Virus record (IMG/VR): IMGVR_UViG_3300036780_000410
Coordinates: 1-26,455 of that record
Length of the DNA stretch: 26,455 nt
Source of the DNA: a virus
Strand: one strand, 5' to 3'
The position numbers and the translations under genes are program-made. The notes under the pieces were generated by a model. The model was given only the letters and a program-made list of their open reading frames with translations. It ran no database searches and was not told the origin of the DNA. This document shows, piece after piece, positions 2,707 to 26,455 of the stretch (its first letter is position 1; every line of letters starts with the position of its first letter).

Positions 2707-2737
2707 TTTCCGCAGAATCCAAACCCGAACCCGCGTA

Positions 2738-2843
2738 GCACAGGCGCTTTTTCGCTCACGCTCGCACCGCCTAGCCAACCTAGCTCGCGTGAGCAGGGTT
2801 GGTGTGGCGGCTGCGAACGCGAGCTCGGAAGATGCCGTCGTGC
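2738..2843 (+). repeat. Bulged-hairpin palindromic element, copy A (expanded)
   Basis: The ends carry the family hallmarks: GCAC-A-GGC at 2738-2745 and GCC-GTC-GTGC at 2834-2843. The centre is expanded: GCTCACGC pairs with GCGTGAGC, and CCGCC...CCAACC pairs with GGTTGG...GGCGG. GGAAGAT at 2827-2833 resembles the loop in reverse. The element ends 24 bases before the protease start codon, with the ribosome site GAAAGGA in between. Confidence 0.7.
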
Positions 2844-2867
2844 GAAGCAAATCTGAAAGGACAACGC

Positions 2868-3746: not shown

Positions 3747-3779
3747 GCGTCTTTTCAGCATTCCCGAAATCCCCGCGTA

Positions 3780-3821
3780 GCACAGGCGAGGCGCGAATCT
3801 TCCAGCGCCGAGCCGTCGTGC
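3780..3821 (+). repeat. Bulged-hairpin palindromic element, copy B (42 bp)
   Basis: Reads GCAC-A-GGC-GA-GGCGC, then loop GAATCTTCCA, then GCGCC-GA-GCC-GTC-GTGC. Every stem segment is complementary, and the GA/GA internal loop and A/GTC bulge are retained. It ends 25 bases before the capsid start; the leader after it (GAAGCACTTC, then AAAAGGAG) is very similar to that after copy A. Confidence 0.8.
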
Positions 3822-3846
3822 GAAGCACTTCTTAAAAGGAGCACTC

Positions 3847-5352
3847 ATGACCACTTCGACCGAACAGACTCTCGGCGCGTTCCGCCAGGCGCAGAAATCG
3901 CCGATCACCGATCCGCTTTTCGCCGCGCTGCTGGCGAAGAGCACCTTCGCCCAGCCGGGCTCGGCGACTTCGGGCCTCAACTTCTACGACCTCGAGCCCG
4001 GCGCGAAGCTGCTCTTCCCGGTGCTGACGCCGCTCCGCAACGACATCCCGCGCGTCTCGGGCAAGGGCGGCATCCAAGCCAACTGGCGCGCCGTCACCGG
4101 CATCAACACCTCGTCGGTGCGCGCCGGGATCTCGGCCGGCAATCGCGGCGGCGTCATCGCGGTGACGACGCAGGATTACGTCGCCGTCTATAAGGGTATC
4201 GGCCTCGAGGCGAATGTCGACTTCGAGGCGGTCTATGCCGGCCAGGGCTTCGACGATCTGCGCGCGGTCGCGGCGCAGACCTTGCTCGAATCGCTGATGC
4301 TGCAGGAAGAGCAGATCATCCTCGGCGGCAATTCCGGCCTCGCCCTCGGCACCACGCCGACTCCGTCACTCACCGCGTCGACGACCGGCGGCTCGCTCGC
4401 GACGCAAACGCTCTCGGTGATCTGCGTCGGGCTGACGCTCGACGGCTTCCTCAATGCGACCGTCGCCGGCGGCATCCCGGCACAGGTCAACCGCACCAAT
4501 GCCGACGGCTCGACCGACAATTTCGGCGGCGGCTCGGCGCGCAAGTCGGCGAACGCGACGGTCGCGGTGACGGGCCCGACCGGCTCGGTCGCGGCGAGCG
4601 TCGCGCAGCCCCGCGGCGCCGTCGCCTATGCCTGGTTCTGGGGCGCGGCGGGATCGGAGGTCCTCGGCGCGATCACCACCATCAACAGCGTTTCGATCGC
4701 GGCGAGCGCGGCCGGGACGCAGACCGCGGCATCGCTGCCGACGGCCGACAACAGCCAGAACGCGCTGGTCTTCGACGGGCTGCTGACCCAGGCCTTCAAC
4801 CCCAGCCTCAACGCCTATTTCGCGGCGCAGCCGACCGGCACGGCGGGGACGGGCACGCCGCTCACCGCCGACAGCGAAGGCGGGATCGTCGAGTTCGACG
4901 CGGCGCTCAAATCCTTCTGGGACAATTACCGCCTGTCGCCGACCGCGATCTACGTGTCGAGCCAGGAGATGCTCAACATCCACAAGAAGATCCTGCAAGG
5001 CGGCACCAACACCGCCGCGCGCTTCGTCTTCTCGGCGGATCAGGGCGCGGTGCTGGGCGGCGTGATGGTCCGCAGCTATCTCAACAAGTTCTCGATGTCG
5101 GGCGCGGTCGAGATCCCGATCAAGCTCCATCCCAACATGCCGGCGGGCACGGTGCTGCTGTTCTCGAAGACCTTGCCCTATCCGCTCTCCAACGTGCCGA
5201 ACACGGTGCAGATCAGGACGCGCAGCGAGTATTACCAGATCGAATGGCCGCTGCGCGCGCGGCGCTACGAATACGGCGTCTATGCCGACGAGGTGCTGCA
5301 GAACTACGCCCCCTTCGCCTTCGGCGCGATCACCAATATCGGCAACGGGTGA
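3847..5352 (+). CDS. Major capsid protein with an inserted Gly/Ala/Thr-rich domain
   Basis: A 501-residue HK97-fold type capsid subunit. AAAAGGAG sits six bases before the ATG. The N-terminal part (FYDLEPGAKLLFPVLTPLRN, TTQDYVAVYKGIGLEANVDF, LQEEQIILGGNSGLALGTTP) and the C-terminal part (FDAALKSFWDNYRLSPTAIYVSSQE, then IEWPLRARRYEYGVYADEVL) match, as I recall them, major capsid proteins of Burkholderia-type siphophages. Between about residues 172 and 300 lies an Ala/Thr/Gly/Ser-rich stretch with paired strands, which probably folds as a surface beta domain. No long N-terminal scaffold region is present, consistent with the scaffold being fused to the protease. Identity is confident. Confidence 0.9.
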   Translation: MTTSTEQTLGAFRQAQKSPITDPLFAALLAKSTFAQPGSATSGLNFYDLEPGAKLLFPVLTPLRNDIPRVSGKGGIQANWRAVTGINTSSVRAGISAGNRGGVIAVTTQDYVAVYKGIGLEANVDFEAVYAGQGFDDLRAVAAQTLLESLMLQEEQIILGGNSGLALGTTPTPSLTASTTGGSLATQTLSVICVGLTLDGFLNATVAGGIPAQVNRTNADGSTDNFGGGSARKSANATVAVTGPTGSVAASVAQPRGAVAYAWFWGAAGSEVLGAITTINSVSIAASAAGTQTAASLPTADNSQNALVFDGLLTQAFNPSLNAYFAAQPTGTAGTGTPLTADSEGGIVEFDAALKSFWDNYRLSPTAIYVSSQEMLNIHKKILQGGTNTAARFVFSADQGAVLGGVMVRSYLNKFSMSGAVEIPIKLHPNMPAGTVLLFSKTLPYPLSNVPNTVQIRTRSEYYQIEWPLRARRYEYGVYADEVLQNYAPFAFGAITNIGNG

Positions 5353-5363
5353 CGCTAAGGGCA

Positions 5364-5394
5364 GAGAGCTGACGGCAGACCGCGGTCAGCTCTC
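5364..5394. terminator. Inverted repeat between convergent genes, possible terminator
   Basis: GAGAGCTGAC at 5364-5373 is perfectly complementary to GTCAGCTCTC at 5385-5394, with an 11-base loop. It lies between the capsid stop and the stop of the convergent - strand gene, where a two-way terminator is expected. No strong T-run follows on either strand, so it may be a simple hairpin or rho-assisted. Confidence 0.5.
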
Positions 5395-5401
5395 GCCTTG
5401 C

Positions 5402-7111
5402 CTATTTGGCGATACGGAAGATGCTGATATCGCCGCCGTTGGCGATCGCCAGCGCTTCGCCGTTTGGCGAGAAGGAGATTCCGGTCACATGCGAGCGAAG
5501 CTGCATGCTTTTCTCGCTGCCGGCGACCGGGTTCCAGAAGCGAATAACGGCGCTCGGATCCACAAATGCGACGAGATTGTCGCGGGGAGACCAGGCAAGG
5601 TGGGGAGAAAAGATATCCATCTTGCCATAGCTCGCGATCTCCGTTCCGTCTGCGAGCGAAAAGATGTGAACAGCGTAGTTTGGAACGTAGGGCAATTTTT
5701 TAACGGCGTCGGGTGGGTCACCCGCCGCCGCAAGTCTTCTTCCGTCTGGGCTAAAGGCAAGTGCGTCATTTGCGGCGGCGACAAAGTCGATGCTTTGTGA
5801 GAGTGAAGCAGTGGCGACGTCGATGATAAAAATATGTAAGCCCGCCACGAGGGCAATTTTCCGGCCGTCGGGTGAAAAGGTCAGAGAGACGAGGAAGGGC
5901 GTGTGCGGTGGAAAGTCGCGCAGAATGTGCACGATCGACCAATCGACGGTGGAATAGAAAACGATTGCCTCTTGGCTGCCGTCCGAAAAAGAGGCGGCGA
6001 GCAGCGTTTCATCCGGCGACTTGGCCATTGATGCTGGTCGCATGCCGACGGGAATGCGTGTTGCCAACGGCGTGGGTTCCTGATGGACGACCTCGCCAGT
6101 GGCGAGCTCGATAACTGAAAAAGCAGCGTCGGACGGAGATGTTTGCGGCGCGCCTGTCATCACGGCGAATTTCCGATCGTGTACGAAGATCGGAGTAAGG
6201 CCGGGGGAAAGCGCCGGTCTCGCTTTGACCTGGTGAATAGGTTGATCGCGCGCGTCGCCCGCGTCGAACCATACGACGTTCGCATTATGCGAGATCAGGC
6301 TCGAACCATCGCGCGACCAAGCGACGCCTTGAGGATCTTGGCCGATACTGATCTCGCGCTCCAGGGCGATCGTCGGCATCCCGCTACCCGAGGAGCCCTC
6401 GATATGAGGCTGCCACCAACGATCGATGCCGATTGCCGCACCGACCACGACCACCGCACTCAATAAGCCATAGACGACGCGGCGCGAAAGAACGCGGCCG
6501 GCGAATGGTACTGAGCGTCTATCGGCTGCTGCCGCAAAAAGGAGAGCAGGCGCGCCCGAATAGGCAAATAGCCAGTAGCACAAGCCACCTGTTGCGCCCG
6601 CAATGCCATATGCGAAATACACGTGCCATCCCGAGCTCAATGTCCGCGCGAGATCGATGGGATAGGCCGGAAGGCTACCCTCGAAATCGAAAGCGTGGGC
6701 CGTGGCGATGCCGAATGGGATATAGAGGATTCCGGAGATCGCGCCCCAGCACAGGCCGCCAATGAAGCGAGAGAGTCCATGGCGGACGGCAATCAATCTG
6801 ATGATCAGGAAAAGTATCAGCGCGAACGGAGCATTTAGTGCTGCCACAAACAATGTCCACGCGACAATTCCTGACAACGCAAAACGCGATGGTAAACCTG
6901 TGTCGCTCAAGGCGAGAAACAGCACAAAAGTGGCAACGGGCAGCGCAAGCAAAAAGCCGATCGCATGAAGGCCGAAGGAAGAACCTGCGACAGGAGACGG
7001 CGTTGGCTGCGTATCTGCGGAGTTCACGGTTCTGAAGAGCGTCCTTCTTGCGGTCGCTGGCTGACTACTCGGCCGCAAGAAAGTTAGCACACCTTCATCT
7101 AGCTCTGCCAT
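5402..7111 (-). CDS. Membrane protein with C-terminal beta-propeller (WD40/YVTN-like) domain, cargo gene
   Basis: The product is about 569 residues. The N-terminal 250 residues contain five to seven hydrophobic spans (for example GFLLALPVATFVLFLALS, GIVAWTLFVAALNAPFALIL, VVYGLLSAVVVVGAAIGI). The rest has repeated blades with WSRDGSSL, FSPDGRKIALV, FSPDGRRLAAAG, WSPRDNLVAFV and FSPNGEALAIA, typical of WD40 or TolB-like propellers. No enzymatic motif is seen. The start is taken as ATG at 7111, with GGGAAG upstream; GTG at 7027 is an alternative. The gene runs against the phage genes, between capsid and connector, and its base composition is less G/C-rich, so it is best read as an acquired cargo (moron) gene. 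Function unknown; a sensor or envelope role is only a guess. Confidence 0.75.
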   Translation of the reverse strand: MAELDEGVLTFLRPSSQPATARRTLFRTVNSADTQPTPSPVAGSSFGLHAIGFLLALPVATFVLFLALSDTGLPSRFALSGIVAWTLFVAALNAPFALILFLIIRLIAVRHGLSRFIGGLCWGAISGILYIPFGIATAHAFDFEGSLPAYPIDLARTLSSGWHVYFAYGIAGATGGLCYWLFAYSGAPALLFAAAADRRSVPFAGRVLSRRVVYGLLSAVVVVGAAIGIDRWWQPHIEGSSGSGMPTIALEREISIGQDPQGVAWSRDGSSLISHNANVVWFDAGDARDQPIHQVKARPALSPGLTPIFVHDRKFAVMTGAPQTSPSDAAFSVIELATGEVVHQEPTPLATRIPVGMRPASMAKSPDETLLAASFSDGSQEAIVFYSTVDWSIVHILRDFPPHTPFLVSLTFSPDGRKIALVAGLHIFIIDVATASLSQSIDFVAAANDALAFSPDGRRLAAAGDPPDAVKKLPYVPNYAVHIFSLADGTEIASYGKMDIFSPHLAWSPRDNLVAFVDPSAVIRFWNPVAGSEKSMQLRSHVTGISFSPNGEALAIANGGDISIFRIAK

Positions 7112-7147
7112 CCGAGGCAGTTCTTCCCGGTAAAGAAGGATCAAATC

Positions 7148-11072: not shown

Positions 11073-12104
11073 ATGGTTCGGTGGCAAAAAATGGCGGCTG
11101 CGGCTTTGGCGATCGCGGCCCTGCTGATCGTGGTGGGCGCGATGCCGATGGCGGCGCGGGCGCAGGGCAAGCCGATCGACGTCATCATCGCGCTGCCGGC
11201 GCCGACCCTCACCTTCAGCGCGCCATTCCTCGCCGAGGATGCGGGGCTCTACAAGAAAGAGGGACTCAACGTCTCGCATCGCATGCTGGTCGGGGTCGAG
11301 GCGGTCAACGCCGTGATCGCCGGCAGCGCCGATTTCACCGTCAGCACCGGCCCCGTGTTCCTGCGCGCGAACGCCAAGGGCCAGCCGCTGCTCGCGGTCG
11401 CCAATCTCATCGACAGACCGCTGGTCGAGATGGTGTTGCGCACGGACGTCTACGACGCGCTGCATGTCACCGATGGCATGTCACTCAAGGAGCGCGGCGC
11501 GCTGCTTAAAGGCAAGACCATCGCCATCCAGGGCGTCGGCAGCATCATCCATGCCTGGGAGCGGTTCGTCGCGGCGCGCGGCGGGCTCGATCCCGAGAAC
11601 GACGTACGCATCGCGCCGATGGACCCGCCGGCGATGCTCGGCGCGCTGCAGACCAAGGCGGTCGACGGTTTCGCGACCTCGTTGCCCTATACGACCCAGG
11701 CGGTGCTGAACGGCAGCGCCAAGATGTTCGCCAGCGCCCCCGAGGGCATCGCGCCCGACATGATCCCGTTCCCCTACGGCATCATCATGGCGCGGCCGCA
11801 GACCTGCCAGCAAAGCCCGGCGAAATGCCGCGGCGTCGTCCACGCGCTCGCCGCCGCCAACAAGATGATCCATGACGAGCCCGACAAGGCGCTCGAGATC
11901 CTGAGCCAGCGCTTCAAGACGATGGACCCGGCGGTGCTGAAGGCGGCATGGAAGACGGTGGCCGCGGCGCATGCGACCGACCTGCGCGTCAACGCCAAGC
12001 TGCTCGCGACCGGCGACAAGATGAATGTCGAGGCGAAGCTGTTGAAGCCCGAGGACCAGCTCAAATCCTATGACGGGCTCTTCACCGACAAGTATCTGCA
12101 GTGA
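11073..12104 (+). CDS. ABC transporter periplasmic substrate-binding protein (NMT1/SsuA-like), cargo gene
   Basis: A 343-residue protein with a clear signal peptide: basic start, hydrophobic core AAAALAIAALLIVVGAMPMA and a likely cleavage after ARA near residue 31. The mature part has the NMT1/SsuA pattern: ALPAPTLTFSAPFLAEDAGLYKKEGL, AVIAGSADFTVSTGP, LKGKTIAIQGVGSIIH and PPAMLGALQTKAVDGFA. Such proteins bind small organic ligands (pyrimidine precursors, sulfonates, aromatics) for import. No permease or ATPase gene accompanies it, so it is an orphan. GGGGAGA precedes the ATG. It is the only cargo gene before the tail chaperone that points in the phage direction. Ligand unknown; family confident. 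Confidence 0.9.
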   Translation: MVRWQKMAAAALAIAALLIVVGAMPMAARAQGKPIDVIIALPAPTLTFSAPFLAEDAGLYKKEGLNVSHRMLVGVEAVNAVIAGSADFTVSTGPVFLRANAKGQPLLAVANLIDRPLVEMVLRTDVYDALHVTDGMSLKERGALLKGKTIAIQGVGSIIHAWERFVAARGGLDPENDVRIAPMDPPAMLGALQTKAVDGFATSLPYTTQAVLNGSAKMFASAPEGIAPDMIPFPYGIIMARPQTCQQSPAKCRGVVHALAAANKMIHDEPDKALEILSQRFKTMDPAVLKAAWKTVAAAHATDLRVNAKLLATGDKMNVEAKLLKPEDQLKSYDGLFTDKYLQ

Positions 12105-12548: not shown

Positions 12549-13606
12549 TCAGCCGAGCCCGGCGATCGTCACCGCGCTGAGGTGGTCTTCGAGGAGTTGG
12601 GGCAGCTGGTCAAGGGGCGTGCGGCCGAAGCCGCAATAGGCGGCAAGGCCGAATGTCGGCAGGAACTTCCGCGCGACGTCGAGCCGGGCTTGGAGCGTCG
12701 GCATCGAATGGATCGCGCCGAGATAGATATCGGCGCCCTTGGCGTCGAGCCCGGCGAGCGGCGCGTAGAAGCTTTCCTCGACGGTGTTCAGCACCGGGAT
12801 ATGCACCCAGTCGATGCGGCGCCCGGCGGCCTCGACCGAAGCGTTGGCGAGATCGACGGTCGGGCCGAGCGTCTTCGGCGCGAAAGCCGGCCAGCCGCCG
12901 AAGGTGCCGAAGCAGAAATGAAAGCCGAGTGCCGCGCTCTCGGGGATATGCCGCGATAGCCGCTTCACCGGCGCGGTATGGTCTCGATGTCGCTTTCGCG
13001 CGGCACGTCCTTGGCGGCACCGGAGACGGCCTGGATCTCCCAGGCCATGTCCCATTGGATCGCGAGATCCTGCGCCGGGATGCGCTGCGCGATGACGTCG
13101 AGCTCGGCGGCGAGCGATTCCTCGAAGCCCGGCCGGATGCGGTCGAGGTCTTTGGGATCGGGGAAATAAAGCGGCCGCACCACGCTGTTGACCATCGGGA
13201 TCGAGATCTGGAAGCGCAGCGCGGCGGGCAGCAGGCCTTTCTCGCGCAGCGTCTTGAAGACGAAATAGGAGGCGACGGCGTCGCGCGCATAGCCGAGCCG
13301 CGTGCCGGGATTGCCGAAGCGCACGCGCTCGACGCCCGGCCGCACGCGGAACTGCCAAGTGTCGGCGCGGGTGCGCGGCAGAAGCTGCTCCAAGCCGTCG
13401 ACCGGCGGCGGCCGCTTCAAGGTCTCGAGATCGGCATGGCCGTTGAAGAGCAGATAGCAGAGGCGGTTGACCCAGGAGCGGCGCTCGCCGATCTCGCCGT
13501 CCGGCAGCGCCGGCAGATAGCGGCCGAGCATGCCGCCGAATTCGAGCATCACCTCTTCGACGGTGTCGCGCGGCACGCTGCCGACGAGCAGGAGTTCCTT
13601 GTTCAT
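12549..13606 (-). pseudogene. Methionine synthase II (MetE C-terminal)-like protein, frameshifted
   Basis: From ATG at 13606 the frame reads MNKELLLVGSVPRDTVEEVM, LPDGEIGERRSWVNRL and RFQISIPMVNSVVRPLYFPD, then stops at 12965 after ESDIETIPRR. The continuation in another frame reads APVKRLSRHIPESAALGFHF, FGTFGGWPAF, DWVHIPVLNTVEESFYAPLA and GLAAYCGFGRT, ending at 12549. The span is 1058 bases, one short of 353 codons, so one missing base near 12965-12970 explains both halves. The UROD/MetE-like TIM-barrel pattern suggests a cobalamin-independent methionine-synthase-like orphan; the full catalytic set cannot be confirmed. It lies on the - strand among cargo genes and could be a true decay or a sequence error. 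Confidence 0.65.
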
Positions 13607-16037: not shown

Positions 16038-16052
16038 CAGCGAACGCCAACG

Positions 16053-16121
16053 CGGCAATGTGCCAGCAAAGCGAGCGGTCGAATCTCGAGACCGCGCGCG
16101 TCTTGCGACGGCACATTGCCG
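16053..16121 (+). repeat. Bulged-hairpin palindromic element, copy G (69 bp, complete)
   Basis: Outer arm CGGCAATGTGCC pairs with GGCACATTGCCG. Inside are A / GAC, GCAA / TTGC, A / GTC, then GCG-A-GCGGTC pairing with GACCGC-G-CGC around loop GAATCTCGA. It fills the gap between the tape measure gene and DUF2460, ending 16 bases before the DUF2460 start codon. Confidence 0.8.
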
Positions 16122-16137: not shown

Positions 16138-16758
16138 ATGAGCACATCGATCTTTCCCACCCTCGCGGGTCTCGGCTGGTCGGTGACGCGCCGCGAGATG
16201 TGGAAGACACGGCTGCAAGAGGCGGTCAGCGGCAAGGAGACGCGCATCGCCGACTGGTCCTATCCGCGTCATCAGTGGACGCTCGGCTTCGACTTCCTGC
16301 GCCAGGGCGCGTTGTCGGGCGCGAGTTACGCCGAGTTCGCGGCGCTCGCCGGCTTCTTCGATCTGCGCCAGGGCAGCTATGATTCCTTTCTCTATGCCGA
16401 TGCCGACGACAATGCCGTCGCCGGCCAGGGTCTCGGGATCGGCGACGGGACGACGACGAGCTTCCAGCTGGTGCGCGGCTTCGGCGGCTTCGTCGAGCCG
16501 ATCCTCGCGCCCAATGCCGTGAGCGCCGTCTATCTCAATGGCGTCGCGCAAAGCCCGGGCGGCTATACCGTCGACGGCTGGGGCGCGAGCGCGCCGGGGA
16601 CGCTGGTCTTTTCGGCCGCGCCCGCGGACGGCGCCACGATCAGCGCCGATATCAGCTTCTCCTTCCCCTGCCGCTTCGCCGCCGACCAGATGGATTTCGA
16701 GAAATTCATGGCGAGCTTGTACAGCGCCAAGAAGGTGACGTTCGTAAGTTTGAAATAG
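16138..16758 (+). CDS. DUF2460 distal tail protein
   Basis: A 206-residue protein of the DUF2460 family: FPTLAGLGWSVTRREMWKTR at the start, RQGSYDSFLYADADDNAVAG in the middle, strand-rich VSAVYLNGVAQSPGGYTVDG and a C-terminal SFPCRFAADQMDFEKFM. In GTAs and related siphophages it forms the distal tail ring that joins the tube to the baseplate, next to DUF2163. GAGAGAAAAC precedes the ATG, which is the only sensible start, directly after the palindromic element G. High confidence from recognised pattern and gene order. Confidence 0.93.
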   Translation: MSTSIFPTLAGLGWSVTRREMWKTRLQEAVSGKETRIADWSYPRHQWTLGFDFLRQGALSGASYAEFAALAGFFDLRQGSYDSFLYADADDNAVAGQGLGIGDGTTTSFQLVRGFGGFVEPILAPNAVSAVYLNGVAQSPGGYTVDGWGASAPGTLVFSAAPADGATISADISFSFPCRFAADQMDFEKFMASLYSAKKVTFVSLK

Positions 16759-16778
16759 GTCGAAACCTAATCCCTTTT

Positions 16779-16857
16779 CGTCATGCCCGGACTTGTTCCG
16801 GGCATCCACGTTCTGAGAACAAGCTCGTGGATGGCCGGGACGAGCCCGGCCATGACG
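16779..16857. repeat. Palindromic genome repeat, CGTCATGCCCGG type
   Basis: CGTCATGCCCGG at 16779 pairs with CCGGCCATGACG near 16846-16857; GGCATCCACG also pairs with CGTGGATGGCC. This is a common dispersed alphaproteobacterial repeat. It occupies the 127-base gap between DUF2460 and DUF2163. Confidence 0.8.
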
Positions 16858-18571: not shown

Positions 18572-19306
18572 ATGCCCGATATCGAAACGGAACGCGCGCG
18601 CGGAGCACAGGCGAGCGCCGAATCTTCTAAGCGCGAGCCGTCGTGCGAAGCATCGGAAAGAGCGGCCGTCATCGCCGAGGCACGCGCGTGGCTGGGCACG
18701 CCCTATCATCACATGGGCCGGGTCAAAGGCGCGGGCGTCGATTGCGCGACCTTGCTCGCCGAGGTCTATGCGCGCGCCGGCGTCATTCCGCCGGTGGCGA
18801 TTCCTTATTATCCGCCGGACTGGCATCTCCATCGCGACGCCGAGCGGTATCTGGGATTTGTTCTGGAACATGCGCAGGAGATTCGCGGCGGAGCACAGGC
18901 GGATGCCCCGGACAATCGCTCGTCGCGATTGTCCCCGGAGGGTTCACGCGCGAAGAGCGCGTGGAGCGGGACATCCAAATCTTCCGGGCGCGAGCCGTTG
19001 TGCGAAGCAAAGCCAAAGCCTGCGGATATCGCGCTGTGGAAATTCGGCCGCTGCTTCTCGCACGGCGCGATCGTGCTCGATTGGCCGCTGGTCATCCATG
19101 CCTATGCCGGCAAGGGCTGCGTGCTCGAGGACGCGTCCCGCGCGCGCTGGCTGGCGCAGCGCGGCGAGCGAAGTGAGCGGTCTCCACGCCCCGTGAAGTT
19201 CTTCCGCCTGATGAGATGGGGCGCACCTGCGCTCGAAACGGATTCGAGCGAAGCAACGGCGCGGGCCGAATATGTAGGCCCGCGCCTGCACGCGGAGCGC
19301 AAATAA
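18572..19306 (+). CDS. NlpC/P60 tail peptidoglycan hydrolase carrying embedded palindromic elements
   Basis: A 244-residue NlpC/P60 cysteine peptidase of the tail tip, which would cut cell-wall peptides during DNA entry. Candidate catalytic residues are Cys58 in GVDCATLLAEVY and His164 in CFSHGAIVLDW; AWLGTPYHHMGR is the family start. Residues 12-25, 108-144 and 228-240 are encoded by copies of the bulged hairpin element (AQASAESSKREPSC; GAQADAPDN...SGREPLC). Without them the protein would be a typical size for this family (about 150). The catalytic motifs are intact and the element reading frames are open, so the enzyme is probably made. Start at 18572 has only weak GCGAGGGCG upstream. It is followed at once by the hub gene (TAA-A-ATG). 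Confidence 0.88.
   Translation: MPDIETERARGAQASAESSKREPSCEASERAAVIAEARAWLGTPYHHMGRVKGAGVDCATLLAEVYARAGVIPPVAIPYYPPDWHLHRDAERYLGFVLEHAQEIRGGAQADAPDNRSSRLSPEGSRAKSAWSGTSKSSGREPLCEAKPKPADIALWKFGRCFSHGAIVLDWPLVIHAYAGKGCVLEDASRARWLAQRGERSERSPRPVKFFRLMRWGAPALETDSSEATARAEYVGPRLHAERK
18605..18646 (+). repeat. Bulged-hairpin palindromic element, copy C (in NlpC/P60 N-terminus, 42 bp)
   Basis: GCAC-A-GGC-GA-GCGC, loop CGAATCTTCTAA, GCGC-GA-GCC-GTC-GTGC. It is 42 bases, 14 codons, read as part of the protein. The start of the conserved enzyme (AAVIAEARAWLGTPY) follows nearby, and GGAAAG after it looks like a former ribosome site. Confidence 0.8.
18893..19003 (+). repeat. Bulged-hairpin palindromic element, copy D (inside NlpC/P60, expanded)
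   Basis: Family ends GCAC-A-GGC at 18893 and GCC-GTT-GTGC ending 19003, with loop AAATCTTCC. Two extra hairpins lie in its 5' arm: GGACAATCGC at 18910-18919 with GCGATTGTCC at 18925-18934, and TTCACGCGC with GCGCGTGGA at 18943-18965. The total of 111 bases is 37 codons and keeps the frame. It lies between the Cys and His catalytic motifs. Confidence 0.7.
19253..19289 (+). repeat. Palindromic element-like hairpin, copy H (NlpC/P60 C-terminus)
   Basis: GCAA-C-GGCGCGGGCC, loop GAATATGTA, GGCCCGCGCC-TGC. The left arm and loop match, in reverse orientation, the right arm of copy I (GGCGCGGGCC-GAATCTTCA). It lies in the last codons of the gene and adds a tail with no role in the enzyme. The terminal GTC-KTGC is absent, so this is a truncated copy. 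Confidence 0.55.
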
Positions 19307-22556: not shown

Positions 22557-22624
22557 GTCGCGGCGCCAGCAAAGACTCGCCGCGAATCTTTTAGCGGTGA
22601 GCCGTCTTGCGACGGCGCCGCGAC
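22557..22624 (+). repeat. Bulged-hairpin palindromic element, copy E (68 bp, complete)
   Basis: Outer arm GTCGCGGCGCC pairs exactly with GGCGCCGCGAC. Inside are A / GAC, GCAA / TTGC, A / GTC, then GACTCGCCGC pairing with GCGGTGAGCC (one mismatch and one G-T) around loop GAATCTTTTA. It ends 14 bases before the tail fibre start codon; AAAGGAG, the ribosome site, follows directly. Confidence 0.8.
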
Positions 22625-22638
22625 GCAAAGGAGAAAAT

Positions 22639-23928
22639 ATGTCCGGCACGCTTTCGCTTCCGACCACCGGCACCTTCTCGGGCCTGACCGAGCAGGGCTA
22701 TATCAACGCGGCGCTCGTCGCGCTCGCCAACGCCAATGCCGGCGCGTCGCCGCCAACCGCGGCCTCGACCGGGCTCGCTTCCACCGCGGGACTCCTCTGG
22801 CACGACACCGCCAACAATCTGTTGAAGCTCCGCGACCAGGCCGACATGACTTGGGTCGTCATCGGCTCTTTGAACGAGACGACGAAGCTCTTCACGCCCT
22901 ATTTCGGCGGCGCTCCGCTCGCGGTTCCCTCCGCCGACGGCTTCGTCAACCGGCTGCGAAACAACTCGCTGACGAGCTGGTTCCACGGTAGCTCCGGCAC
23001 GATCACGACGTCCGGCGGATGGGCAGCCGAGGGTGTCTATGTCGTACCGACCGGCGCCAGCATCGCCTGGAGCCAAGCGACGGCCGGCCTGCCGACGGCA
23101 TGCCCGACCGTCAACGGGTTGACGCTGACGGGCGCGAGCGCCATCACCGATCTCAAAATCCGCCTCGTTATCGAGAGCTATGACGCGGCGCAGCTCGCCG
23201 GCCAGGCGTGCACCTTCCAGCTGCCGATCGTCAACAACACCGGCGGCTCGATCACACCAACGATCGCGACCAAATATCCGACGGCGCAGGACAACTGGAC
23301 GAGCTCGACCAACGACCTCGCCGCGGCCAACTTGCAGACGGTCGCCAACGCCGCCACGGGCGTCTTGTCTTCGACGTTCAACGTCGCCGCCGGCGCCGTG
23401 AACGGTTACGAGATCATTGTCGATTTCGGCAACAATTTCGCCAGCAACGCGAAGAGCGTGACGATCGGCGGCGGCTTCGATTTGCGCGCGACACCCGGCG
23501 CGATGACCGGACTCAATTCATCGCCACCGACGCCAGAGGTCCGTGACGTGGTTTCAGATCAGGCATGGAACGCGCGCTTCTACGAGACGACCTACAACAA
23601 TAGGACGGCGCCCGGCGCGGCAACGCCGAATGGGATGGTATTCTTCTACCAGGAGACCTACGTCAATCCCGGATGGGACGCCGGTGGCGGTGCCGTAGGA
23701 TTCAAAGTGAGAAAGCGTGCGGCACCGACCGTGACCTGGTACGACGCTGCAGGAAATGCAAGCAAGCTATCGGCTTACTTCAATACCATTAGAGGCGACA
23801 ATATCAGCATCCCGGGCTCGTCGACGATAGGCGAGTGCGGATTCGAAATTCTCGCAAGCGCAGCCGTCGGTAGCGGAATGCCGCTGCTGGCTCACTATGT
23901 AGCCGACGCAACAATTATCGGAGCATGA
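22639..23928 (+). CDS. Tail fibre / receptor-binding-like protein
   Basis: A 429-residue protein: MSGTLSLPTTGTFSGLTEQG at the start, a HDTANNLLKLRDQADMTWVV motif typical of the N-terminal attachment region of tail fibres, then beta-rich domains with TITTSGGWAAEGVYVVPTGA and IVNNTGGSITPTI of the type found in carbohydrate-binding tail proteins. The start is at 22639, six bases after AAAGGAG. Placed after the hub and before a DUF4376-like gene, it fits the receptor-recognition unit. The receptor cannot be named. From about 23500 onward the base composition falls in G/C, suggesting a recently acquired tip. Confidence 0.7.
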   Translation: MSGTLSLPTTGTFSGLTEQGYINAALVALANANAGASPPTAASTGLASTAGLLWHDTANNLLKLRDQADMTWVVIGSLNETTKLFTPYFGGAPLAVPSADGFVNRLRNNSLTSWFHGSSGTITTSGGWAAEGVYVVPTGASIAWSQATAGLPTACPTVNGLTLTGASAITDLKIRLVIESYDAAQLAGQACTFQLPIVNNTGGSITPTIATKYPTAQDNWTSSTNDLAAANLQTVANAATGVLSSTFNVAAGAVNGYEIIVDFGNNFASNAKSVTIGGGFDLRATPGAMTGLNSSPPTPEVRDVVSDQAWNARFYETTYNNRTAPGAATPNGMVFFYQETYVNPGWDAGGGAVGFKVRKRAAPTVTWYDAAGNASKLSAYFNTIRGDNISIPGSSTIGECGFEILASAAVGSGMPLLAHYVADATIIGA

Positions 23929-25011: not shown

Positions 25012-25209
25012 ATGAATCACAAGCTCGATGCCGTCTTCGACGGCACCGCGGCGCTGACCGCGATTGCCGCACCGCTCTGGCTCGCCGATGCCGAGCTCTG
25101 GGGCCGCGCTCTCGTCATCCTCGGCGGCGTGGTGCTGCTCGCTTTGCGCATCGTCATCGCCTGGCGCGCCTTGCGCCGGGCGCGGACGAGCGGCGGCCGC
25201 CATGAGTGA
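25012..25209 (+). CDS. Small one-span membrane protein of the lysis region
   Basis: A 65-residue protein: a short N-terminus, one strong hydrophobic span (LWGRALVILGGVVLLALRIV) and a very basic C-terminus (RALRRARTSGGRH). TGGAG lies a few bases before the ATG. Its stop overlaps the endolysin start by eight bases, so the two are co-translated. By position it may be a holin, antiholin or spanin-like helper of lysis; no family is recognised. A second ATG at 25008 is in another frame. Confidence 0.5.
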   Translation: MNHKLDAVFDGTAALTAIAAPLWLADAELWGRALVILGGVVLLALRIVIAWRALRRARTSGGRHE

Positions 25210-25816
25210 CGCAGCCAACTCCTCGGCGGCGCCAGCACAGGCCGCGAGCGAATCTCCAGCGACGCGGCCGTCGTGCGACGGCGCAGTCGACGCATTCAAA
25301 GCCGCTGTTGCCATCGTGCTCGCGCATGAAGGCGGTTATCAGGCGCTGCCCGACGATGCCGGCAACTGGACCCAAGGCAAGATCGGCGCTGGCGCCTTGA
25401 AGGGCACGAAATACGGCATCAGCGCCGCGCAATATCCGACGCTCGACATCGCCGCGCTGACCGCCGATGACGCCGCCGCGATCTATCGCCGCGATTGGTG
25501 GGATCGCTTCGGCCTCGCACGTCTGCCGCCGCCGCTGGCGGCAAAGCTCTTCGACGCCGCGGTCAATCTCGGCATCGAGGAAGCCGTGCGCGCGCTGCAG
25601 CGCGCACTCCGCGCCGCCGGCCCGCAAAACGCGGCGCCCCTCGCCGAAGACGGCAAGCTCGGCGCGGCGACGCTCGCCGCCGCCGTTGCCATCGCGCCCG
25701 CGACGGTGCTGCCGGCGCTGCGCGAGGCGCTCGCCGGCCATTACCGCCTCATCGCCGCGCGCAGCCCGTCGCAGGCGTCTTTCCTGACGGGCTGGCTCAG
25801 CCGCGCCTATTCGTGA
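25202..25816 (+). CDS. GH108 endolysin (lysozyme) with an element-encoded N-terminus
   Basis: A 204-residue glycoside hydrolase 108 muramidase that cuts peptidoglycan to release particles. VLAHEGGY holds the candidate catalytic Glu43; GTKYGISAAQYPTLDIAALT, YRRDWWDRFG and LPPPLAAKLFDAAVNLG follow the GH108/zliS family, and the C-terminal region from about residue 120 looks like the PG-binding-3 domain. The normal family start (DAFKAAVAIVLAHEGGY) is preceded by about 30 residues, of which residues 8-30 are encoded by palindromic element F, so this N-terminus is acquired. No signal peptide, so release needs a holin. High confidence for the enzyme. Confidence 0.93.
   Translation: MSDAANSSAAPAQAASESPATRPSCDGAVDAFKAAVAIVLAHEGGYQALPDDAGNWTQGKIGAGALKGTKYGISAAQYPTLDIAALTADDAAAIYRRDWWDRFGLARLPPPLAAKLFDAAVNLGIEEAVRALQRALRAAGPQNAAPLAEDGKLGAATLAAAVAIAPATVLPALREALAGHYRLIAARSPSQASFLTGWLSRAYS
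25223..25290 (+). repeat. Bulged-hairpin palindromic element, copy F (68 bp, in the endolysin N-terminus)
   Basis: Outer arm TCGGCGGCGCC pairs with GGCGCAGTCGA (one mismatch, one G-T). Inside are A / GAC, GCAC / GTGC, A / GTC, then GGCCGC-GA-GC pairing with GC-GA-C-GCGGCC around loop GAATCTCCA. Its translation reads SAAPAQAASESPATRPSCDG, similar to that of copy C in NlpC/P60. Confidence 0.8.
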
Positions 25817-26026: not shown

Positions 26027-26455
26027 ATGGCCTTCGGCATCGACGACGCGGTCGGCGCGGTCAGCAATCTCGCCACCACCATCATCAACAAGGTCTTCCC
26101 CGATCCGCAAGACGCGGCGAAGGCCAAGGCGCTGCTCCAGGCGGCGGACACGCAAGCGGCGATCCAGCAGACCGCCTCGCAGCTCCAGGCGATCATGGCC
26201 GAGGCGCAATCCACCGATAAATGGACCAGCCGCGCGCGGCCGAGCTTCCTCTATGTCTGCTACGGCATGATCCTGACGGCGATCCCGATGGGCGTGCTCT
26301 ACGCGTTCGATCCGGGTCATGCGCAGAAGATCGCGCTCGGCCTCCAGGCCTGGCTCGCCGCGATTCCCGATCCGGTGTGGCAGCTCTTCACCGTCGGTTA
26401 TCTCGGCTACACCGGCGGAAGATCGTGGGAAAAGATCAAGGGGGCCGCGAAGTAG
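26027..26455 (+). CDS. Holin of the 3TM (GTA-type) family
   Basis: A 142-residue protein starting one base after the preceding stop. An N-terminal amphipathic region (IINKVFPDPQDAAKAKALLQ) is followed by WTSRARPSFLYVCYGMILTA, a second span near IALGLQAWLAAI and a C-terminal VWQLFTVGYLGYTGGRSWEK, the pattern of the phage/GTA three-helix holins. It would permeabilise the inner membrane so the endolysin can reach the wall. It ends at the last base of the window with a complete stop codon. High confidence. Confidence 0.9.
   Translation: MAFGIDDAVGAVSNLATTIINKVFPDPQDAAKAKALLQAADTQAAIQQTASQLQAIMAEAQSTDKWTSRARPSFLYVCYGMILTAIPMGVLYAFDPGHAQKIALGLQAWLAAIPDPVWQLFTVGYLGYTGGRSWEKIKGAAK

Follow-up and report, generated by a model that had tools for sequence, protein, structure and literature searches.

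How did the endolysin of a phage-like DNA come to begin with a peptide encoded by a palindromic repeat, and did that repeat make the start of the gene or extend a gene that was already there? The question arises in a sequence of 26,455 bases (the window), which is the whole of the IMG/VR virus record IMGVR_UViG_3300036780_000410. An earlier note on this DNA had proposed that a palindromic element created the endolysin N-terminus and that a second cell-wall enzyme carried a related peptide. We compared the window with related virus records, among them two syntenic ones designated as G001 (IMGVR_UViG_3300037235_000325) and G002 (IMGVR_UViG_3300036800_000522), whose BLASTN blocks show 74-92% identity.

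The gene order in the window fits a tailed phage or a gene-transfer-agent-like (GTA-like) cluster. It runs from the portal, HK97 protease, capsid region (named by position), tape measure and Rcc01695-family distal tail protein to a GTA-type baseplate hub, the NlpC/P60 peptidase and a tail protein, the NCBIfam scores for this part being below the curated cut-offs, and then to the endolysin with a GTA-type holin. Three genes matter for what follows.

18572-19306, plus strand: NlpC/P60 phage cell-wall peptidase, 244 aa (TIGR02219, E 4e-13; the 49.9 bits fall short of the curated cut-off, 81.9)
25202-25816, plus strand: GH108 endolysin, 204 aa (Pfam Glyco_hydro_108 at residues 37-124, E 2e-20; PG_binding_3; PHROG endolysin)
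26027-26455, plus strand: GTA-type 3TM holin, downstream of the endolysin (Pfam GTA_holin_3TM, E 1.4e-25)

The endolysin ATG overlaps the stop codon of the upstream gene (ATGA). Glu43 is invariant in an alignment of the window with 27 of the 31 usable relatives (28 sequences), which, together with the GH108 and PG_binding_3 domains, identifies the product as a GH108 endolysin. One account of RcGTA proposes that a putative lysozyme and holin, rcc00555 and rcc00556, serve release (PMC3423380).

Several other features of the record were observed. The window starts exactly at the portal ATG and stops at the holin stop codon, and the records of G002 and G001 end within about 1 base and about 13 bases of the holin stop, respectively, which suggests proviruses trimmed at gene borders, not natural ends. 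Metabolic-type genes lie among the phage structural genes at 11073-12104 and 12549-13606, namely an NMT1/THI5-like binding protein and a minus-strand methionine-synthase-like gene (family name by eye) that appears to switch frame in the window; the DNA of both stretches is conserved at 82-86% in G001 and G002. Between the capsid-region gene and the next head gene lies a stretch of about 1.8 kb (5355-7147) for which BLASTN at E 1e-8 gave no match in G001 or in the compared part of G002; it contains a minus-strand ORF that by eye encodes membrane segments. A 110-nt direct repeat of 92% identity (984-1093 and 2532-2641) places a portion of the portal gene again downstream, and in both G001 and G002 this region likewise has two or more matching places. 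A different palindromic repeat, which by eye resembles a CGTC-type REP, lies between two tail genes at 16774-16857 and has 82-84% matches elsewhere in G001.

The palindromic element family

Counting from the ATG at 25202, the palindrome at 25223-25290 does encode endolysin residues 8-30, as had been noted, and it belongs to a dispersed family. The copies counted in the window, which include 16051-16112, the 118-nt form at 2732-2849 and the weak sequence at 19247-19299, are listed below.

2732-2849, plus strand: copy A, 118-nt long form, intergenic, ahead of the prohead protease ATG at 2868 (fold -68.5)
3774-3827, plus strand: copy B, intergenic, ahead of the ATG at 3847 (repeat search and model)
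16051-16112, plus strand: copy H, intergenic, ahead of the ATG at 16138 (leave-out model, E 1.7e-6)
18597-18652, plus strand: copy C, in frame in NlpC/P60 after codon 5-8, +22 codons
18884-19009, plus strand: copy D, long form inside NlpC/P60, in frame, +38 to +40 codons (core at 18956-19009; the left edge is approximate)
19247-19299, plus strand: weak element-like copy encoding the NlpC/P60 C-terminus (21 bits, E 0.0074; hairpin -31.0)
22559-22616, plus strand: copy E, intergenic, ahead of the ATG at 22639
25223-25290, plus strand: copy F, endolysin residues 8-30, one imperfect hairpin, found by the leave-out model

The repeat search placed 25229-25282 in one family with sequences at 3774, 18599, 18956, and 22563, and BLASTN searches started from copies E and B matched copy F at E 5e-7 and 3e-6. 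A leave-out covariance model (R2), built from five copies without F and D, recovered F at 25228-25282 with 36.4 bits (E 8.5e-7) and scored D weakly (E 0.025). Copy A reached 31.7 bits (E 1.3e-5) with R2 and just 16.3 bits with R1. The core covariance models comprised 56 and 54 positions. No Rfam family was found at gathering score in the window, in G001, or in the part of G002 that was searched.

The element measures about 54-62 nt, with long forms of about 118-130 nt, and combines conserved ends with a variable inner hairpin. Copy D and one copy in G001 appear to be long forms, their inner stem broken up by additional hairpins; the ends of copy A are CGCGTAGCACAGGC and GCCGTCGTGCGAAGCA, and those of D are similar. 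Six of the seven aligned cores adopt one imperfect hairpin with the loop word GAATCT, the exception being D, and copy C folds otherwise when its flanks are included. As RNA, copy F folds at -39.7 kcal/mol (z -3.05; 1 of 200 shuffles equally good), and with DNA parameters it is unexceptional (z -1.0; 31 of 200 shuffles). Its RNA energy ranks 18th among 2639 windows of 68 nt taken every 10 nt along this GC-rich record. Since this energy is only mildly unusual for the genome, the fold alone proves little, and family membership carries the case.

Covariation was assessed on the seven copies, and the stem does show compensatory changes. Both sides of a pair had changed in 10 cells, against 4.0 in shuffles, and none of 500 shuffles reached either the observed count of double-change cells or the covariation score. 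Stricter measures were weaker: the observed number of pairs with a double change was reached in 28 of 500 shuffles, and that of further pair types in 71 of 500. The sequence recurs and can fold into a long imperfect palindrome.

The endolysin start in element-free relatives

The endolysin genes of the window, G001, and G002 start alike, with the same ATGA overlap of the upstream stop and common first codons (MSD/MND). The element is missing at this start in both relatives, which thus provide empty sites. In the window, MSD is followed by about 26 residues and then DAFKAAVAIVLAHEGGY, where G001 has MSDATPSDDGFAAAVALVLAHEGGF and G002 has MNDDDGFAAALAIVLAHEGGY.

25211-25288, plus strand: inserted stretch relative to the relatives (approximate limits), a net +21 codons against G001 and +25 against G002

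The conserved GH108 glutamate moves correspondingly, from residue 22 in G001 and residue 18 in G002 to residue 43 in the window, and the endolysin N-terminus of the next relative, L038, is also short. The survey was then widened to 36 viral GH108 loci, of which five were dropped and 31 had a usable ATG start, set by a crude rule that took the first ATG upstream at a distance of 12 codons or more; at least two locus pairs look identical. With starts set in this way, the glutamate lies at residue 22 or earlier in 28 of the 31 relatives. It stands at 33, 41, and 43 in the three exceptions, two of which by eye have a hydrophobic, signal-like N-terminus.

Because the ATG, the ATGA overlap, and the first codons are common to relatives without the element, 21-25 codons were inserted in frame just after an old start. 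On the same comparison, the idea that the element created the endolysin N-terminus or its start codon finds no support. The companion claim that the element segment was acquired ahead of the family domain stands, since relatives lack the segment and the Pfam GH108 match begins only at residue 37.

Two findings that would speak against an acquired, translated peptide were looked for. No homologue with the same N-terminus but without the palindrome occurs among the 36 GH108 loci, and the window gene offers no in-frame ATG, GTG, or TTG between codon 1 and codon 39, which itself falls within the first helix of the structure model. The peptide is therefore translated if the protein is made, and the endolysin is presumably made in vivo. 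In the structure model, the GH108 domain has pLDDT values of 91-98, and residues 1-25 form a coil with blocks of 63-70.

The NlpC/P60 peptidase as a second case

The endolysin peptide AQAASESPATRPSC resembles the NlpC/P60 peptide AQASAESSKREPSC, as the earlier note had observed, and the latter is likewise an acquired N-terminal addition, of 22 codons relative to relatives. A Pfam search of this protein gave no match, and its assignment comes from NCBIfam and from a fold search that matched NlpC/P60 enzymes in the PDB, insert notwithstanding. The protein has 244 aa in the window, compared with 186 in G001 and 156 in G002. Against these two syntenic relatives, copy C accounts for +22 codons near the start and copy D for +38 or +40 in the middle of the gene. 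The PYHH motif is accordingly found at residue 44 in the window, and all four of the closest relatives have it at residue 22; it lies at residue 28 or earlier in 55 of the 69 scorable loci (80 loci in total). The NCBIfam match spans residues 33-97 in the window and 11-129 in G001, a shortening due to the D insert.

Cys58, His164, and His176, which we take to be the catalytic residues, are invariant in 31 aligned sequences and lie outside the inserts. In the structure model, the D insert (residues 111-144) mostly has a pLDDT below 50, and the copy C segment is not disordered but belongs to a helix spanning residues 4-18, with pLDDT blocks of 79 and 68. The word GAATCT (AAATCT in D) occupies the same codon phase in all three coding copies. 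This common element frame is only suggestive, since several frames are open in each of them.

In-frame insertion with empty orthologues was thus found for three insertions in two genes. With the weak copy at its 3′ end, the NlpC/P60 gene seems to accumulate palindromes, having them at its start, at its end and in between. In G001, the gene has a different C-terminal extension (VTPAKAGVQ...) where the window has 19247-19299, and this extension is palindrome-like by eye.

Dispersal of the element and competing explanations

At E ≤0.05, the model found six copies in the window, three in G001, two in the record of L064, and none in the record of L065 or anywhere in G002. Site occupancy differs between records. 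The H site is empty in G001, G002, and L064, the B site is empty in G001 and G002, and the site of a G001 copy after the tail gene is empty in the window, G002, and L064. No site was common to records among C, D, F, B, H, and one G001 copy, the copies covered by the site-by-site comparison.

Wider viral searches of 95 and 37 loci yielded no further convincing copy. One viral scan returned G001 again, another gave G001 plus three loci that the model did not match, and further scans gave G001 and 12 other loci; these 12 by eye had no 5′ arm, and the best model score among them was 19.4 bits (E 0.051). Two plasmid queries and one query of named phages gave no element match. An exact pattern searched in a collection of 84,980 genomes hit two loci, neither of them an element by eye; as this pattern fits four of the eight strong copies (B, C, E, and one of G001), the negative is meaningful and incomplete. 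A looser pattern gave no hit in 299 genomes of the phylum of one Burkholderia genome. The RNA model found nothing in 369 genomes from the class that includes G362 (which has a 58%-identical capsid-region gene), in six genomes with related capsid-region genes, or in the families of G175 (0 of 41) and G362 (0 of 3), and these genome negatives are weak, with 15-150 candidates scored per large genome and small virus records as the only positive control. Host assignment through the capsid-region gene or the NMT1-like gene found no host.

The observations are best explained by a dispersed mobile palindromic element, copies of which were inserted in frame into the endolysin (F) and into NlpC/P60 (C and D), a reading to which we give a probability of about 0.8. 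Against it weigh the lack of a Y1 transposase in the virus records and of a clean target-site duplication, the helix modelled for copy C, the unexceptional DNA fold of F, the modest stricter covariation measures, and the weak leave-out score of D; a mobilising enzyme could, however, be encoded by the host. An element of the kind known as Rickettsia palindromic elements (RPEs) or intragenic REPs, tolerated at permissive positions, is most likely. Through mobilisation of the element, one copy would have entered a pre-existing endolysin gene directly behind its third codon. Its length and sequence kept the frame open, so that the enzyme gained 21-25 residues rich in Ala, Ser, and Pro, a probably disordered tail before an unchanged catalytic domain. 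Separate copies would have done likewise near the NlpC/P60 start (C) and within that gene (D). The added peptide may be near-neutral, surviving because the sites are permissive.

A more specific version, in which a phage-borne mobile palindrome, constant at its ends and variable in its core, spreads among related phages and repeatedly extends cell-wall enzymes, with NlpC/P60 hit at the start, in the middle, and perhaps at the end, is in our judgment unlikely. The placement of the copies bears on it. All four intergenic window copies (A, B, H, and E) end 18-25 nt before an ATG, and the two coding copies nearest to a start lie 21 nt (F) and 27 nt (C) past their own ATGs. For the four intergenic copies the product of the placement probabilities is 0.0024, and 419 of 7506 placements in all gaps, which include unannotated genes, were as near to ATGs. 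The combined Fisher placement test, however, gave p = 0.147 for these four copies and p = 0.448 for eight copies from three records. A preference for start codons was therefore dropped, the closeness fitting uniform placement in short gaps, and this lowers the odds both of the phage-borne version and of an RNA-control role.

Under the latter, the element would be an RNA control hairpin by the start codon, tuning how the mRNAs of the endolysin and of the genes behind other copies are translated or processed, with the peptide as a by-product. The positions of F and C shortly past their ATGs and the RNA fold of F (z -3.05) agree with such a role, and REPs at the 5′ ends of ORFs have been proposed as post-transcriptional elements in one study of REP-bearing bacteria (PMC3733652). 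Relatives, however, have the same genes without the element at those sites, copy D lies mid-gene, and the closeness of the intergenic copies to starts is within uniform placement, so that we regard this role as quite improbable.

Selection of the insert for what it adds to the protein, such as a linker or an interaction tail in each of the two cell-wall enzymes, would account for the related peptides on GH108 and NlpC/P60, the shared frame of the three coding copies, and the helix modelled for copy C. We hold it to be very unlikely, because the copies between genes are no rarer than the coding ones, several frames are open per coding copy, the F and D inserts are modelled as coil or at low confidence, and relatives do without the inserts. 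Finally, an ancestral long N-terminus deleted in relatives, or a chance match in a GC-rich genome, would suit a hairpin that alone is unexceptional for this genome, but is largely refuted by the short N-terminus in 28 of 31 relatives, the leave-out E of 8.5e-7, and the covariation score that no shuffle reached, and is barely credible.

The proposed mobile palindromic element can be compared with known systems. Like MITEs and REPINs, it has a non-autonomous size, paired inverted ends, and internal length variants; unlike them, it shows no clean target-site duplication and no transposase-matched terminal repeats, and Y1_Tnp (PF01797; RAYT-type transposase) is absent from all five virus records. 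It also resembles the GTAG and CGTC REP super-families in being a short palindrome found within genes at the N-terminus. REPs of these types have a palindrome of 20-40 bp with an unpaired tag at one end, whereas the present element is longer, with similar ends and a variable centre; GTAG- and CGTC-like words can be seen by eye in some copies. In REP-bearing bacteria, some palindromes are described as lying wholly within ORFs, many at the N-terminus, and CGTC-type REPs as predominating in alphaproteobacteria (PMC3733652).

Palindromes inside genes with the frame intact are reported for Rickettsia and Wolbachia (PMC10969869, PMC3767692). The present element is like these RPE and Wolbachia palindromic elements in being a dispersed in-frame palindrome, the RPE peptide being described as occupying solvent-exposed areas (PMC10969869, PMC3767692). 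It differs from RPEs (100-150 bp) in occurring in virus records, being GC-rich and mostly 54-62 nt, and not being found in the searched genome collections. We therefore place it among the in-frame gene palindromes of the Rickettsia, Wolbachia, or REP type provisionally, on anatomy and not on sequence homology.

No such element in phage genes was described in the literature searched, which comprised titles and abstract openings and covered few subscription journals. The endolysin offers a clean before-and-after case of a protein extended by a palindrome, the two syntenic virus records supplying the empty sites. Since NlpC/P60 took two, perhaps three, insertions, tolerance or function is directly testable on the purified enzymes. 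Phage cell-wall enzymes would show the phenomenon described for Rickettsia, Wolbachia, and REP-bearing bacteria.
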